Shown here piece after piece: positions 5,022 to 19,416 of a DNA stretch of 64,000 bases. The first letter of the stretch is position 1. Every line of letters begins with the position of its first letter. The translations under genes and the position numbers were made by a program. Under the pieces are notes generated by a model. It was not told where the DNA came from. It did not search any database and saw only the letters and a list, made by a program, of their open reading frames with translations. This DNA is from Halomonas sp. (GTDB lineage Bacteria > Pseudomonadota > Gammaproteobacteria > Pseudomonadales > Halomonadaceae): the NCBI RefSeq assembly GCF_017515565.1, contig NZ_JAFWFN010000026.1, positions 1 through 64,000 of the forward strand, in the 5' to 3' direction.

Positions 5022-5645
5022 CTATACCTGCCTTCTGTCTAATTCATTCATCAGCTTAGAAATGTTTTTGGCGGAGCTGCCTGTATCGTCAGCAAGTTTG
5101 CGCACGTTATCAGCCACTACAGCAAACCCTTTACCAGCCTCGCCAGCACGCGCAGCCTCAATACCGGCGTTAATGCTCAATAAGCGCAGCATTTTTAACG
5201 TATGTACGATTTGTTCGGTTTCTGAGGCGATTCCACGGCTAATCGTCGCAAGCCGTTCCTCGTTTTGACGCCGTGCCTGGATATCGGTGACCACACCTTC
5301 CAAATAGATAACGGTGCCGTTTTCATCTGTCACTGCGCCGCCATACTCACTTACCCAGCGTAGGCTACCGTCTTTATTTTTTAAGCGGTAGTCGGCTTGC
5401 CAGTTTTGTTTGGCATCAATGGCTTTTTCGATAGCCTGGTCAAGCGCAGCAGCGTCATCGGGATAAATCAGCTCTACATAGGATTGATGGCGATTGTTTA
5501 GCAAATCCTCAACCATATACCCGGTCAGGTCTTTTACCCGGCCTGTCAGATTCAGCATCGTGTAGTGTTCGTCGTTTCTGCAGCGGTATAAGAAGCCGTT
5601 CATACGCGTAGCGATACTTTCATACACATTGTCGTGCTCAGACAT
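5022..5645 (-). CDS. Short soluble PAS protein with a minimal chemoreceptor signalling tip
   Basis: The protein has 207 residues and no membrane segment. A PAS fold spans about residues 15-125 ([15 protein letters not shown], then [22 protein letters not shown] and a DITxxR-type end). A short piece of methyl-accepting chemotaxis protein signalling domain follows, containing the hairpin-tip consensus [22 protein letters not shown]-like block at about 163-185. Full receptors carry far longer coiled-coil arms; here only the tip and about 20 residues on either side remain. It may couple a PAS signal to CheA/CheW arrays or act as a decoy tip. No che genes are nearby. The domains are certain, the function is not. 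Confidence 0.8.
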
Positions 5646-9479: not shown

Positions 9480-10331
9480 TTACCGGTGCTTTTTGACGGT
9501 GTACATAGCGCTGTCGGCATGCTTAAGCAGCGTGTCAGCATCTTCTCCATCGGAGGGATAACACGCCACACCAATACTGCAGGATGGCATGCGGATTTCA
9601 CCGAATTCTGCGCCTAGCGGCTCGGCCATGGCGGTGAGAATCTGATCAACCTTACGTGCCACGGCGTCCATCGACTGGATGTCTGTCAGCAGTACCGTAA
9701 ATTCGTCACCGCCCATCCTCGCTACCGTGTCTGTTTCACGGAGGCAGCCCTCCAGTCGTCGAGCGACCGTACAGAGCACCCCATCACCTATGTCATGTCC
9801 ATAGGTATCGTTGATTGCCTTGAAGTCATTAACATCCAGAAATAGCAGCGCAAGGAGGCTCTGATGGCGACGAGCCGTACTCAAACCTGAGGTTAACCGA
9901 TCATAAAAGAGCGACCTATTCGTTAGCTTTGTTAATGGATCATGATGGGCGCGGAAGCGCAATTCCTCTTCGGCTTGCACGAGGGCTGTCACGTCCCGCG
10001 CAACACCGATACGAACTTCCTCTTCTTCATACCATCGGGCAGACCATAAAATGTGCACGGTGCTGCCATCCTTGCGGAGATAGCGGTTGCGGAAATCGAT
10101 GTGTTGCTGGCCGTTCATGACGCGCGCAATGGAAGCTCGCGTGAGCGCCAAATCGTCAGGATGCATGTAGTGGGTGATGAAGGTGCCAATTAGCTCATCG
10201 GCACGGTAGCCAAGCAGTGACTCACAGGCATTACTCACAAAGAGGATCTGATTGTCTCCATCAACCACGAAGACCGTGTCCAGCATCAAGTGAATCAGCT
10301 TGGGGTAGAGTGCTTGCAGGTCCTCGGGCAT
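9480..10331 (-). CDS. PAS-GGDEF diguanylate cyclase
   Basis: The protein has 283 residues and is soluble. A PAS domain (about 10-120; DTVFVVDGDNQILFVSNACE, then a DVTALV end) leads into a GGDEF domain (about 125-283). The catalytic MGGDEF is intact and is preceded by R-E-T-D five residues upstream, the standard RxxD product-inhibition site. It should therefore make c-di-GMP from two GTP and be feedback-inhibited. The protein ends abruptly after SAMYTVKKHR, slightly short of the usual C-terminus but beyond the catalytic core. The gene is monocistronic. It is one of four intact c-di-GMP-related genes in this window. Confidence 0.92.
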   Translation of the reverse strand: MPEDLQALYPKLIHLMLDTVFVVDGDNQILFVSNACESLLGYRADELIGTFITHYMHPDDLALTRASIARVMNGQQHIDFRNRYLRKDGSTVHILWSARWYEEEEVRIGVARDVTALVQAEEELRFRAHHDPLTKLTNRSLFYDRLTSGLSTARRHQSLLALLFLDVNDFKAINDTYGHDIGDGVLCTVARRLEGCLRETDTVARMGGDEFTVLLTDIQSMDAVARKVDQILTAMAEPLGAEFGEIRMPSCSIGVACYPSDGEDADTLLKHADSAMYTVKKHR

Positions 10332-10729: not shown

Positions 10730-12472
10730 ATGTATACATCCAACCGATTTTCGCTCGATACGTTCCCAGTGGGATGCATGATTACCGACAGTAAGCGCCG
10801 CATTCTTTACTGCAACCGCTATCTTGAGGAGTATCACGGCCACTCAACAGATGAGCTGTTGGGCGCCGATTTGTTTACCTTGCTGAGTAAAGCGTCCCAG
10901 ATTATGTATGACACGTATTTAGTGCCCATTTTGGTGCGAGAAAAAAAGTGTCATGAAATCCGCCTGTGTATGGTGAGTCACTGCAACACTTCTTTGCCGG
11001 TAGTGGTGAGTATTTTGTGCGATGACAGCGCTAACGGACAACTTTTCTGGAGTATTAGCAGTGCCCGCCGGTCTGATCGATTATTTGAGGAGCTGACGGA
11101 AACCAAGCAGCTGCTTGAGCAGAAGGTGTCTTTACTGCGTAGGATCTCTGATACGGATCAGTTAACGGGCCTGCCTAACCGTACGGCCATGGCTAAGCAT
11201 CTTGATCAGAAAATTATCGAACAAAAAAAAGATGATATGGCATTTGCACTTGCGTTTGTGGACCTTGATGGTTTCAAAGAGGTCAATGACCACTATGGGC
11301 ATCAGATGGGCGACAAAATTCTTCAGCTCGTCGCCAAGCGCTTAGCCAGTAATCTAAGAAGTGATGACGTAATTGCCCGCTTTGGCGGCGATGAGTTTGT
11401 GATTTTTTTAAATGGCCGCTTTAGTGCGCGCTTAGTAGAGGAGTCGCTTTCGCGGCTTATTAACAAGCTCGCTGAGCCCTTTGATATAGACTCCGTATTG
11501 TTAACGCTTTCGGCCAGTATTGGCGTTACGCTATACCCGCAGTCGAAAGAGGTTGAAGCGGATCACTTGATTCGCCAAGCTGACCAAGCGATGTATCAAG
11601 CTAAACTGTTAGGCAAGAATCAGATCTGCTTATTTAATGTGGACAATGAACACGTTCAACAAGGTAAACAGTCAGAACTATCTGCTATTAAAGCGGCCAT
11701 GGAAGCTAAGGAGTTCGAGCTTTACTACCAACCTAAGATCAACATGCTTACCGGCAGAGTGCTGGGGGCTGAAGCACTCATACGCTGGAACCACCCCAGT
11801 GAAGGGTTAAAGGCACCGGTAACTTTTTTGCCCGTTCTCACTAATACCTCTACGGGCGTGGCGCTAGGGCGGTGGGTTATTACCAGTGCACTTCGCCAAC
11901 TGCAAACTTGGCTTCAGCAGGGCCTGGATGTGCACGTCAGCGTTAATATCGACGGGTATCACTTACAGCACTCCCACTTTCTTCATGATTTAAGCAACAT
12001 ACTTGCCGATTTTCCAAGCCTACCTAAGCAACGGCTTGAGCTGGAAGTGCTTGAAACAAGCACTATCGAAGATGTGGGGCATGTCTACTCCGTGCTGAAT
12101 GCTTGCAGAATGATGGGGATCCGAATCTCGTTAGATGATTTTGGCACAGGCTATTCTTCTTTAAGCCATCTCAGAGACCTTTCGGTCGATACGCTCAAAA
12201 TTGACCGTAGTTTTGTGCAGAACATGCTGACCAGTACCGGTGACCGAGCCATTCTAAAAGGGGTGATTGGTTTTGCGCGAGCATTCGAGTGTGATGTCGT
12301 TGCTGAAGGTGTTGAGGCGCTAGCGCATAGCCAACAGCTTATTGAGTTTGGTTGTGAGTGTGGGCAGGGGTATTTTATTGCTCACCCTATGCCTGCTCAA
12401 GACTTCGCAGGCTGGGTGGATAAGTGGCACCAGCGAGGGTTTCAAAATAAGTTTAACCGTGATGTTATTTGA
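10730..12472 (+). CDS. PAS-GGDEF-EAL bifunctional c-di-GMP enzyme with an RsbP-like PAS domain
   Basis: The protein has 580 residues and is soluble. A PAS domain (about 8-112), a short coiled coil (about 117-140), a GGDEF domain with intact FGGDEF (219-223) and RSDD inhibition site (210-213), and an EAL domain from about 320 follow in order. The EAL domain keeps E348-A-L, VNID, LEVLET, DDFGTGYSS, LKIDRSFV and AEGVE, so both synthesis and hydrolysis of c-di-GMP look chemically possible. The PAS domain resembles that of Bacillus RsbP, notably LFTLLSKAS...YDTYLVPIL and a T/D-x-P-V-V-V strand. The stop lies 20 bp before the RsbQ-type gene, implying one transcript and one signalling unit. Confidence 0.93.
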   Translation: MYTSNRFSLDTFPVGCMITDSKRRILYCNRYLEEYHGHSTDELLGADLFTLLSKASQIMYDTYLVPILVREKKCHEIRLCMVSHCNTSLPVVVSILCDDSANGQLFWSISSARRSDRLFEELTETKQLLEQKVSLLRRISDTDQLTGLPNRTAMAKHLDQKIIEQKKDDMAFALAFVDLDGFKEVNDHYGHQMGDKILQLVAKRLASNLRSDDVIARFGGDEFVIFLNGRFSARLVEESLSRLINKLAEPFDIDSVLLTLSASIGVTLYPQSKEVEADHLIRQADQAMYQAKLLGKNQICLFNVDNEHVQQGKQSELSAIKAAMEAKEFELYYQPKINMLTGRVLGAEALIRWNHPSEGLKAPVTFLPVLTNTSTGVALGRWVITSALRQLQTWLQQGLDVHVSVNIDGYHLQHSHFLHDLSNILADFPSLPKQRLELEVLETSTIEDVGHVYSVLNACRMMGIRISLDDFGTGYSSLSHLRDLSVDTLKIDRSFVQNMLTSTGDRAILKGVIGFARAFECDVVAEGVEALAHSQQLIEFGCECGQGYFIAHPMPAQDFAGWVDKWHQRGFQNKFNRDVI

Positions 12473-12492
12473 CGTAAGGGAGTGGTTCTAGC

Positions 12493-13302
12493 GTGCTATC
12501 GAAAGAGCAGGTGATGATTCGCAATAATGTAACGGTTATGGGTTCTGGCGAGAAAACACTAATGCTAGCCCACGGTTTTGGCTGTGATCAAAATATGTGG
12601 CAATACATCGCTCCCCAGTTAAAAGAGCGCTACACGTTAGTGTTATTTGATTATGTGGGGTCAGGTCATTCGCAAGCATCCGCTTTTAGTGAATCACGCT
12701 ATAGCACGCTGGAAGGCTATGCCCTTGATGTAAGAGAGATCTGTGAAGCGCTAGACCTTAACGAAGTGCATTTCGTAGGACACTCGGTTAGTTGCAGTAT
12801 TGGCCTGCTTGCCTCTATTGCTAGCCCAGAGCGTTTCGCCAGTCAGGTCATGATTTGCCCATCGCCCTGTTTTTTGAATATGCCGCCGGACTATCACGGT
12901 GGCTTTGAAAAAAAAGACCTTGAAGAGCTGATTGATCTTATGGGGCGCAATTATATGGGGTGGGCTAATTACCTAGCACCCCTTGTCGTGGGAGGTGAAA
13001 ACTCATCGGTATTCATTGATGAGCTTTCAAGCAGTTTTTGTTCTACCGATCCGGTGTTGGCGAAGACATTCGCGAAGGCTACGTTCTTTTCAGATTATCG
13101 CCATCTACTGCCACAAGCACAGCATGCTGCGCTTGTGCTTCAAAGCCAAGATGATGCGCTTGCCAACCCGGAAGTAGGTCGTTACATCCATGCGCAGATG
13201 CCTCAGAGCACACTGCGCATGGTGGAAAGCAAAGGGCACTGTATCCACATGACACACCCAGCGCTTGTTTTGCGAGAAATTCATGCCTGGTTAGATGACT
13301 AA
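12493..13302 (+). CDS. rsbQ: RsbQ-type alpha/beta hydrolase, probable PAS-partner signalling hydrolase
   Basis: The protein has 269 residues. The triad is Ser98 in GHSVS, Asp220 in QSQDDAL and His249 in SKGHCIH. Blocks such as SPCFLNMPPDYHGGFE, YMGWANY, FCSTDPVLAKTFAKATFFSD and KGHCIHMTHP are hallmarks of RsbQ and the related D14/KAI2 receptors. In Bacillus, RsbQ binds a small hydrophobic ligand and is required to activate RsbP, a PAS-phosphatase. Here the neighbour is a PAS-GGDEF-EAL protein instead. The start is a GTG with AAGGGAG 10 bases upstream; an ATG at 12514 is a less likely alternative. Partner and role are inferred from adjacency and PAS similarity. Confidence 0.9.
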   Translation: MLSKEQVMIRNNVTVMGSGEKTLMLAHGFGCDQNMWQYIAPQLKERYTLVLFDYVGSGHSQASAFSESRYSTLEGYALDVREICEALDLNEVHFVGHSVSCSIGLLASIASPERFASQVMICPSPCFLNMPPDYHGGFEKKDLEELIDLMGRNYMGWANYLAPLVVGGENSSVFIDELSSSFCSTDPVLAKTFAKATFFSDYRHLLPQAQHAALVLQSQDDALANPEVGRYIHAQMPQSTLRMVESKGHCIHMTHPALVLREIHAWLDD

Positions 13303-17392: not shown

Positions 17393-18337
17393 CTAACGGT
17401 TATAAGCGCTTTTAGACGCGGCCAGCGTGTATAAAAACTCAAGCCCCAGCGTGGCCGCGGCGAGGGACGTGATGTCACCGTGGTCGTAAGCGGGGTTCAC
17501 TTCCACTACGTCCATCCCTACCAAGTCCATCCCTACCATGCCGCGAATCACTTTCAGCATTAAATCGGTGGACATACCACCGCAGACGGGTGTGCCAGTG
17601 CCGGGTGCATAGGCGGGGTCTAAGCCGTCGATGTCCAAGCTCACATAGGCCGGGTGATGACCCACGCGGGCTCGGATGCGCTCCAGCACCGCAGCGGCGC
17701 CGTGGTCGTTCACCCAGTCGGCATCCAACACGTCGTAAGGGTGATTGTGACGGTCGTAGCTGGTGCGAATGCCAATTTGTAGTGAGTGCTCAGGCACTAC
17801 CAGCCCCTCTTTTAGGGCGTGGTGGAAAATGGTGCCGTGGTCAAAGCGTGTGCCTTGCTCATAGGTGTCGGTATGGGCATCAAAATGTATCAGTGCCAGT
17901 GGGCCATGTTCCCGGGCGTGAGCGCGCAGCAGTGGGAGGCTGATGTAGTGGTCGCCCCCCAGCGTCAGCATTTTTTTACCCGCTTTTAGCCAACGCATCG
18001 CATGAGTTTCAAGGTTGTCTACCAAGCTTTCCGGCTCGCCGTAGGCATAGTCCAGATTGCCCGCATCGCACACCCGCAGACGCTCTTCCAGGGCGAAATC
18101 CCAAGGCCAGCGCTTGCCTTCCCAAATTAAATTGGCGGTACTTTGGCGAATGGCATTGGGCCCCATGCGGGTACCCGATCGGCCAGAACATGCCAAGTCG
18201 AAGGGTACACCGCTTACCACTACCTCAGCATCGGTCGTTTTGGGATCAATAGCTTTGGGTACGCCCATAAAAGTAGAGATAACATCGCCATACAAGCTGG
18301 GCATGGTGGGTGCAGAGAGAGTTTGCGGGAGTGTCAC
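17393..18337 (-). CDS. speB: Agmatinase-family ureohydrolase
   Basis: The protein has 314 residues. The binuclear manganese site of the arginase/agmatinase family is intact: H130 in GGDHYI, D153/H155/D157 in FDAHTDTY, and the later DIDGLDPAYAPGTGTP motif. The enzyme hydrolyses agmatine, or a related guanidino compound such as guanidinobutyrate, to urea plus the amine. The start is a GTG with AGGAGA eight bases upstream. A divergent LysR gene 140 bp away is probably its regulator. In Halomonas-type genomes several paralogues exist, so the exact substrate is uncertain. Confidence 0.88.
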   Translation of the reverse strand: MTLPQTLSAPTMPSLYGDVISTFMGVPKAIDPKTTDAEVVVSGVPFDLACSGRSGTRMGPNAIRQSTANLIWEGKRWPWDFALEERLRVCDAGNLDYAYGEPESLVDNLETHAMRWLKAGKKMLTLGGDHYISLPLLRAHAREHGPLALIHFDAHTDTYEQGTRFDHGTIFHHALKEGLVVPEHSLQIGIRTSYDRHNHPYDVLDADWVNDHGAAAVLERIRARVGHHPAYVSLDIDGLDPAYAPGTGTPVCGGMSTDLMLKVIRGMVGMDLVGMDVVEVNPAYDHGDITSLAAATLGLEFLYTLAASKSAYNR

Positions 18338-18441
18338 TGCGGGCGTCTCCTGACGTACTTAAAAAGGAGGTGACATCGCCTATAGAGGCGAAAGAGGGGT
18401 GACGATAAGGCGTTTTTGGTAATGAATGAAATGAATGTTTA

Positions 18442-18455
18442 GAATGAAACCATTC
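18442..18455. promoter_or_regulatory. Dyad in the speB/LysR divergent promoter
   Basis: GAATG (18442-18446) and CATTC (18451-18455) form an inverted repeat, with further ATGAATG copies just upstream (18421-18440). It lies 23 bp before the LysR start, a common place for an autoregulatory LysR site. The evidence is only the symmetry. Confidence 0.3.
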
Positions 18456-18477
18456 GTACTACAAATAGTGAGTCGCC

Positions 18478-19416
18478 ATGCGTTCGCTCCGCCACTTCGA
18501 TCTAAATTTACTCTTGGTATTTGAGGCGTTAATGCGCGAACGCCATGTAACGCGGGCGGCAGAAAAGCTGCACCTAAGTCAGCCAGCGCTTAGTCACGCC
18601 TTAAAGCGGCTGCGAGAAGCGCTAGACGACCCGCTGTTAATACGTACGGGTAATGGCTTGCAGCCAACCCCAAGAGCGCTGGCGCTGCTGCCGGTGGTGC
18701 AGCAAGCATTGGCACTGCTGCAAGCAGGCTTGGCCCCGCCAGAATCGTTCACCCCGGCGACCAGCACGCGGCGCTTTACCCTGGCCACTACCGATTACTT
18801 TGAAGAGGTGATGTATCCGGCATTTCTGAGTCAATTGCTGACTTACGCGCCGGGGATCAGCTTTTCGATAGAGTTAATTACGCCTGACGTGCTTAGCGGT
18901 GCACTAGAGCAGCGCCAGGTAGATATGGTGGTGGGGTTAGACAGCCAGAACGTATTGCCCAGTGGCGTCATCCAAACGCCGTGGATGGATGAAGCGTTGG
19001 TCTGCTTAGCCGCAGCGGATAATGACTGCGTGGGAGAGGCGCTGACCATTGAGCAGTTTGCCCGTCAGCCCCATGTTGAGTTAGCCGATATCAGCGGTTT
19101 ATTACCCAGTAATATCGAAAATTGCTTAGCACAGCATAAGTTAAGCCGCCGCGTTATTTCAAAAAATCTAAACTACATCGCGGCGGCCAGAGTCGTGTCA
19201 TTAACCGATGCCATTATGACCCTGCCGAGGCAAATGGCTGAGCGGTTTATCACGATGCTACCGGTGCGCATCGTTGCCCCGCCTCAAGAGCTGCCCACGC
19301 TCAACATGACGCTGATCCAGCATGGGCTGTATGCCAATGATCCTGCGATAGCTTGGCTCAAACACTCACTGCTTGAATATGCCTGCCTATTTAAGCAAAA
19401 GTTACCACCGCTCTGA
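18478..19416 (+). CDS. LysR-family transcriptional regulator (NodD/LeuO-like) next to speB
   Basis: The protein has 312 residues. The DNA-binding segment (VTRAAEKLHLSQPALSHALK, about residues 24-43) follows the typical MRSLRHFDLNLLLVFEAL start. The C-terminal part is a periplasmic-binding-protein-like effector domain. The gene is divergently transcribed from speB, so regulation of agmatinase by a guanidino compound or polyamine is the natural hypothesis. The effector cannot be read from sequence. Confidence 0.88.
   Translation: MRSLRHFDLNLLLVFEALMRERHVTRAAEKLHLSQPALSHALKRLREALDDPLLIRTGNGLQPTPRALALLPVVQQALALLQAGLAPPESFTPATSTRRFTLATTDYFEEVMYPAFLSQLLTYAPGISFSIELITPDVLSGALEQRQVDMVVGLDSQNVLPSGVIQTPWMDEALVCLAAADNDCVGEALTIEQFARQPHVELADISGLLPSNIENCLAQHKLSRRVISKNLNYIAAARVVSLTDAIMTLPRQMAERFITMLPVRIVAPPQELPTLNMTLIQHGLYANDPAIAWLKHSLLEYACLFKQKLPPL

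Follow-up and report, generated by a model that had tools for sequence, protein, structure and literature searches.

A probable RsbQ-PAS input module with a GGDEF-EAL output, in reversed gene order, in Halomonas

Two adjacent genes of a Halomonas sp. probably constitute a bipartite input module, in which an RsbQ-type hydrolase and an RsbP-class PAS domain would govern a GGDEF-EAL c-di-GMP output. The pair is found in the window, the whole stretch of 64,000 nucleotides that was analysed, which comes from a genome of 3.76 Mb in 86 contigs; its parts are given in Table 1. The gene pair itself, the class of both partners, their conservation and the predicted folds were observed. In the proposed mechanism, the Ser-His-Asp site of the hydrolase would capture, and probably hydrolyse, a small hydrophobic molecule, and the hydrolase would contact the PAS domain on its F-alpha side. 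Either the PAS pocket would then receive the product or the hydrolase would alter its grip on the PAS domain, and the change would run down the PAS-GGDEF helix and shift the balance between the GGDEF and EAL activities. The hydrolase-PAS contact and the need for the triad are expected by analogy with RsbQP of B. subtilis, and we infer that a small molecule may control c-di-GMP, motility or biofilm through the pair.

Table 1. Positions in the window of the two genes and of their domains, motifs and catalytic codons
Feature	Positions	Strand	Basis
PAS-GGDEF-EAL gene, 580 aa	10730..12472	+	ORF; Pfam
N-terminal RsbP-class PAS domain (by profile), residues 1-112	10730..11065	+	PAS profile E 6.1e-28; model pLDDT 92.6
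F-alpha helix, residues 54-71	10889..10942	+	PAS alignment; helix in predicted model
Predicted continuous helix between PAS and GGDEF, residues 112-139	11063..11146	+	Predicted model
GGDEF domain, GGDEF and RxxD I-site intact	11150..11623	+	Pfam; motif reading
EAL domain carrying the EAL, N, DD, K, E and Q motifs, with a changed AEExG stretch	11684..12388	+	Pfam; motifs
20-bp gap with purine-rich AAGGGAG, likely ribosome site	12473..12492	+	Sequence
RsbQ-type alpha/beta hydrolase gene, 269 aa, GTG start	12493..13302	+	
Catalytic Ser98 codon	12784..12786	+	Homologue alignment
Catalytic Asp221 codon	13153..13155	+	Homologue alignment
Catalytic His249 codon	13237..13239	+	Homologue alignment

The gene pair was as a previous sequence-only reading had described it, with both ORFs on one strand and 20 bp apart. 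In the 580-aa protein Pfam detected EAL (E 3.9e-67), GGDEF (1.3e-47) and PAS (3.3e-07) domains; it recognised the 269-aa protein as an alpha/beta hydrolase. A search for a terminator-like site between the two genes found none; one was present at the end of the hydrolase gene, in a region where such sites are no more frequent than in shuffled sequence. Just upstream of the pair, a divergent gene (9480-10331, minus strand) encodes a 283-aa protein that reads as PAS-GGDEF, and further away (5022-5645, minus strand) a short protein of 207 aa reads as a PAS domain joined to part of a chemoreceptor signalling domain.

Among alpha/beta hydrolases, the window hydrolase matched RsbQ best and over its whole length. 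The closest match among the structures compared was Olei00960 of Oleispira antarctica (PDB 3qvm, E 1.4e-104); RsbQ of B. subtilis (1wom, E 4.4e-88) is 50% identical over the aligned segment and has the same triad, and the best plant receptor (5z7w, E 3.9e-58) matched more weakly than either. RsbQ is kin of the plant karrikin and strigolactone receptors, and members of the KAI2, D14 and DLK2 family, whose signalling partners differ from those of the bacterial module, are 30-38% identical to the window hydrolase. The RsbQ family residues F27, V97, F136 and F196 are present as F29, V99, F138 and F198. The triad had been read as Ser98-Asp220-His249, of which Ser98 and His249 stood; the acidic residue was one position off, because D occupies position 220 in 29 of 128 homologues and position 221 in all 128. 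The corrected triad, S98, D221 and H249, aligns with S96, D219 and H247 of Bacillus RsbQ (numbering from the portion of PMC3183031 used here); its S and D are present in 128/128 homologues, and its H in 125 of the 126 that have a letter there. In the same alignment, L2, K4, S66, E67, S117, R152 and W266 were peculiar to the RsbQ proteins of the window's clade (the reversed-order pairs described below). A plasmid search returned a homologue in 74 of 72,556 records, every one less than 60% identical.

The PAS domain was evaluated with a profile built from 37 of the 66 available PAS domains located downstream of and adjacent to a hydrolase in the named set (at least 587 relatives, of which the best 80 were taken), none of these PAS domains being from the window's clade. 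In the window's genome this profile had 25 matches; the window PAS ranked first (E 6.1e-28, 98.7 bits) and the runner-up was far behind (E 2.0e-6, 29.2 bits). By this similarity the window PAS belongs to the RsbP class, it did not cluster away from RsbP-type domains, and the RsbP-like character proposed in the sequence-only reading was thus borne out; the same difference in E-values rules out a generic PAS domain that merely resembles RsbP. This type of PAS domain is rare in a class-wide sample, where 1 of 369 genomes, its own, carried it at E 1e-10; it nevertheless reaches beyond the genus, since a Marinobacter MAG (L067; L and G numbers are our labels for loci and genomes) has it as well. 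A solved RsbP PAS structure was rejected as a direct reference, because the PDB sequence search returned five weak matches (best NifL, E 0.0058), and RsbP of Bacillus inaquosorum (L126) was used instead in an alignment that, counting duplicates, comprised 102 hydrolase-adjacent PAS domains.

In this alignment the F-alpha helix of the window PAS aligned with that of B. inaquosorum RsbP without gaps, and L48, Q53, Y59, P62, E72 and P86 of RsbP were kept at a constant offset of +4. Among the class residues tested, L48, Q53, Y59, E72 and P86 were identical and four were substituted (C10V, L13M, F55M and C56Y); B. inaquosorum RsbP likewise has Y at the C56 position, and L13 is variable among paired PAS domains. 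In F-alpha, Q57, M59, Y60, Y63 and P66 of the window protein correspond to Q53, F55, C56, Y59 and P62. The F55 position was F in 59 of 72 hydrolase-first rows against 0 of 28 clade rows (24 of them distinct), all of which have M, I, V or L. The clade keeps P62, E72 and P86, and its Y59 position is Y or F. Since F55 is replaced across the clade rows, the hydrolase-PAS interface must differ in detail. The DIT motif was looked for at the end of the PAS domain and is absent from the window protein, which reads FWSISSARRSD there. The predicted model (pLDDT 92.6) has a PAS fold with F-alpha at residues 54-71, and a helix from 112 to 139 leads to GGDEF.

The output part of the window protein carries RSDDVIARFGGDEF and, in the EAL domain, EAL, VNID, DDFGTG, KID, AEGVE and CECGQG, which we take to be the catalytic motifs. 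In 24/24 clade members, 66-67 residues separate the E72 position from DxLT. GGDEF is present in 23 of them, L045 having GADEF, and L041, L042, L045, L050 and L051 have another sequence in place of the RxxD I-site. To judge from the motifs, both the GGDEF and the EAL activities of the window protein are plausible; enzyme activity is not certain, because the AEExG stretch usual in EAL domains is altered and because of the GADEF of L045. In proteins that combine GGDEF and EAL, one of the two domains frequently has a regulatory role. In one form of the proposed module, the net output would be a phosphodiesterase and GGDEF would serve as a GTP-sensing accessory to EAL, which agrees with this general behaviour and with GADEF in one clade member; however, GGDEF is retained in all other members and it is the window's EAL domain that has the altered stretch, and we consider this form possible although not the one to be expected.

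Of the 80 loci in the named set (the best of at least 587 relatives), 70 encode a PAS protein directly downstream of the hydrolase and 6 directly upstream; upstream PAS-GGDEF-EAL proteins occur in five of the 80 (four Vreelandella/Halomonas and the Marinobacter MAG), an upstream PAS-class III cyclase in one (L104, Planktothrix), and in four (L086, L093, L094 and L095) no PAS partner was seen, L093 ending right after the hydrolase. In L118, L123 and L124 the downstream PAS protein was assigned by eye, and L127 was set by eye as hydrolase-first, its partner's frame reading through upstream; the duplicates L066, L068, L069, L070 and L086 were left out of the tree and retained in the PAS alignment counts and in the 80 loci. 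Pfam assigned nine chosen partners from this set to seven histidine kinases, one SpoIIE-type phosphatase and one class III cyclase. The distances between RsbQ proteins correlated with those between their PAS domains (r 0.76 for 112 pairs, against a maximum of 0.08 in 500 permutations), a value to which shared descent contributes.

In the Halomonas family, a hydrolase match was present in 52 of 275 genomes. None of the 19 family loci outside the genus had the reversed order: in 13 the hydrolase precedes a PAS-GGDEF gene, in two (L163 and L164) a 144-aa PAS ORF, three (L150-L152) are RsbQ-PAS fusions, and L153 is without a found PAS. The fusions are single ORFs of 390-399 aa (L150:4044-5243(+), L151:3664-4836(-) and L152:4018-5196(+)), whose PAS domain is RsbP-class and has no output domain behind it. 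A gene for a GAF-sigma-54 activator lies upstream of the L150 fusion by Pfam, and similar ORFs were seen by eye at L151 and L152. The Planktothrix gene (L104:3386-5325(+), P. paucivesiculata PCC 9631), directly upstream of an RsbQ homologue, encodes an RsbP-class PAS domain and, in the same protein, a class III nucleotide cyclase (PF00211, E 3.2e-20). At L058:4063-5450(+), L059:4085-5475(+), L163 and L164, an RsbQ homologue is followed by a PAS ORF of 144-205 aa in which neither GGDEF nor EAL was found; these ORFs are either stand-alone PAS proteins or broken genes. At L155 and L156, a further GGDEF-EAL gene (1007-1036 aa) follows a usual-order RsbQ/PAS-GGDEF pair. The more unusual facts, the fusions without an output domain and the class III cyclase partner, sit outside the window.

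A tree of 78 of the 128 hydrolases placed the 24 reversed-order PAS-GGDEF-EAL members in one clade (support 97/88), and the reversed order had a single origin in 98% of 200 bootstrap trees. Because these members form one supported clade, the gene order was most likely reversed once. The clade is nested, together with usual-order alpha- and gammaproteobacterial hydrolases, in a group of 48 rows whose branch (89/86) is not starred, and its sisters, on a 26-row branch (100/99), are the orphans L052 and L053.

In another form of the proposed module, corresponding to model 1 of Nadezhdin, Brody and Price (2011), the hydrolase would be the enzyme that makes the product sensed by the PAS domain and not a docked receptor. 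Equal amounts of the two proteins would then not be required, in keeping with the hydrolase gene coming second in the operon. This form, which we hold to be rather unlikely, is favoured by the order itself, by the loss of F55 and by the spacing, as the hydrolase ORF starts 5-155 bp past the end of the PAS-GGDEF-EAL gene in 17 of 21 clade loci and overlap occurs in 36 of 66 hydrolase-first pairs (in both counts the starts are those of the longest ORF, hence they weigh little). Nevertheless, the fusions in relatives argue for close contact, and the F-alpha and class positions retained by the clade (P62, E72, P86, and Y59 as Y or F) speak for a docked hydrolase.

The sequence-only reading had presented the c-di-GMP wiring, in place of a phosphatase, as a departure. 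The pairing is well supported by the profile, the linkage and the single clade, but the rewiring is not unexpected, because diguanylate cyclase and cyclase-EAL outputs were already published. In the part of the paper by Nadezhdin, Brody and Price (2011; PMC3183031) used here, 45 RsbQ/RsbP-PAS pairs are described whose output is a phosphatase, a kinase or a diguanylate cyclase, EAL being present in three, and the ligand of RsbQ was still unknown. As in that module, the window has an RsbQ gene beside an N-terminal RsbP-class PAS domain with an output domain and no DIT motif. In contrast, all 45 hydrolases are upstream of the PAS gene and that of the window is downstream, with C10 and F55 replaced; adjacency itself holds. 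The upstream position was what the 2011 search looked for, and it does not imply a functional need (PMC3183031). According to the same portion of the paper, the RsbQ triad is required in B. subtilis, and F55 and Y59 of the PAS domain matter for RsbQ contact. The RsbQ-RsbP pair of the B. subtilis sigma-B energy-stress branch is alike in the conserved F-alpha, E72 and P86 positions of its PAS domain (by alignment of B. inaquosorum RsbP) and unlike in its PP2C phosphatase output and its gene order. The Halomonas DgcY/HhmR system was rejected as the same system, since it is described as a membrane cyclase with a LysR partner in the part of PMC12421958 consulted. The central idea has thus been known since 2011, and the reversed order is a minor variant. 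The new details are this order with its one origin, the change of F55 to M, I, V or L in the clade, the close hydrolases without a partner in five genomes and, elsewhere, the RsbQ-PAS fusions and the one PAS-class III cyclase partner; among the open-access titles and abstract openings listed, none dealt with the reversal of the genes, with the fusions or with a class III cyclase as partner.

Within the genus, 33 of 82 genomes had a hydrolase match (E 1e-40 or better), and in 28 genomes the identity was at least 56%. The linkage proposed from the window was kept in related genomes, with the PAS-GGDEF-EAL gene directly before the hydrolase in 23 of these 28 (the window, 21 scanned loci, and L054, whose ORF is cut by the contig end and was recognised in the PAS alignment). 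Both genes of the pair have a low dN/dS (first 20 codons excluded). The window-type PAS was found at E 1e-8 in 25 of the 82 genomes, namely the 23 pairs, G030 (L064), where the PAS-GGDEF-EAL gene is present without a hydrolase match, and G011, where an 83-aa remnant of the PAS gene (L065:4496-4747(+)), again without a hydrolase match, is what is left of a system that seems to have decayed. More distant hydrolases (33-38% identical), in five further genomes and as a second copy in G050, are in the usual order, before PAS-GGDEF (L060-L063) or before the short PAS ORFs of L058 and L059.

In the remaining five of the 28 genomes (L052, L053 and L055-L057), no PAS was found beside the close hydrolase. 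A search for an RsbP-class PAS at E 1e-4 found none in G070, G017 and G020, and G026 and G040 had only weak matches of about 25 bits. With dN/dS values of 0.15 for L052/L053 and 0.10 for L055/L056, such a hydrolase can be kept without a partner. L052:4118-5014(-) and L053:4027-4842(-), whose genomes are among those that yielded no RsbP-class PAS, adjoin agmatinase-like and LysR genes that, by reading, resemble those at 17393-19416 of the window. These orphans and the lone PAS-GGDEF-EAL gene of G030 weaken a strict pair. They are also what favours, together with the loss of the contact residue F55, a hydrolase that is a metabolic or detoxifying esterase merely sharing the operon, with the PAS domain sensing its own cue alone; we judge this improbable in view of the adjacency conserved across phyla, the PAS class signature and the RsbQ-PAS fusions. 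Chance neighbours are ruled out by the PAS profile and by the two genes lying side by side in 23 of 28 genomes.

We favour the RsbQ-PAS module because of the distance of the window PAS from the next match in the genome, the fixed order of the pair in the genus and in the Marinobacter MAG, the PAS neighbours of most hydrolases in the named set (the top 80 of at least 587 relatives), the distance correlation, the fusions, the conserved triad, the low dN/dS and the B. subtilis data. Counting against it are F55, on which RsbQ binding depends in B. subtilis and which is missing from all clade rows, the five partnerless close hydrolases, G030, the altered AEExG stretch and the GADEF of L045. A joint reading, which we offer as doubtful, is that RsbQ-PAS is a detachable receptor that has moved between outputs and may even run alone. 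The contact would have been rebuilt in the clade, with the hydrolase behind its partner and F55 replaced, the fusions without output may control the sigma-54 activator in trans, and in Planktothrix the PAS domain is joined to a class III cyclase. If this is true, one conserved bacterial metabolite would feed into c-di-GMP, cAMP/cGMP, phosphorelay, sigma-B and sigma-54 control alike. A module driving a c-di-GMP enzyme in environmental halophiles would offer a simple readout (c-di-GMP, motility or biofilm) for the hunt for the RsbQ ligand, and the natural RsbQ-PAS fusions would be good candidates for solving the complex.
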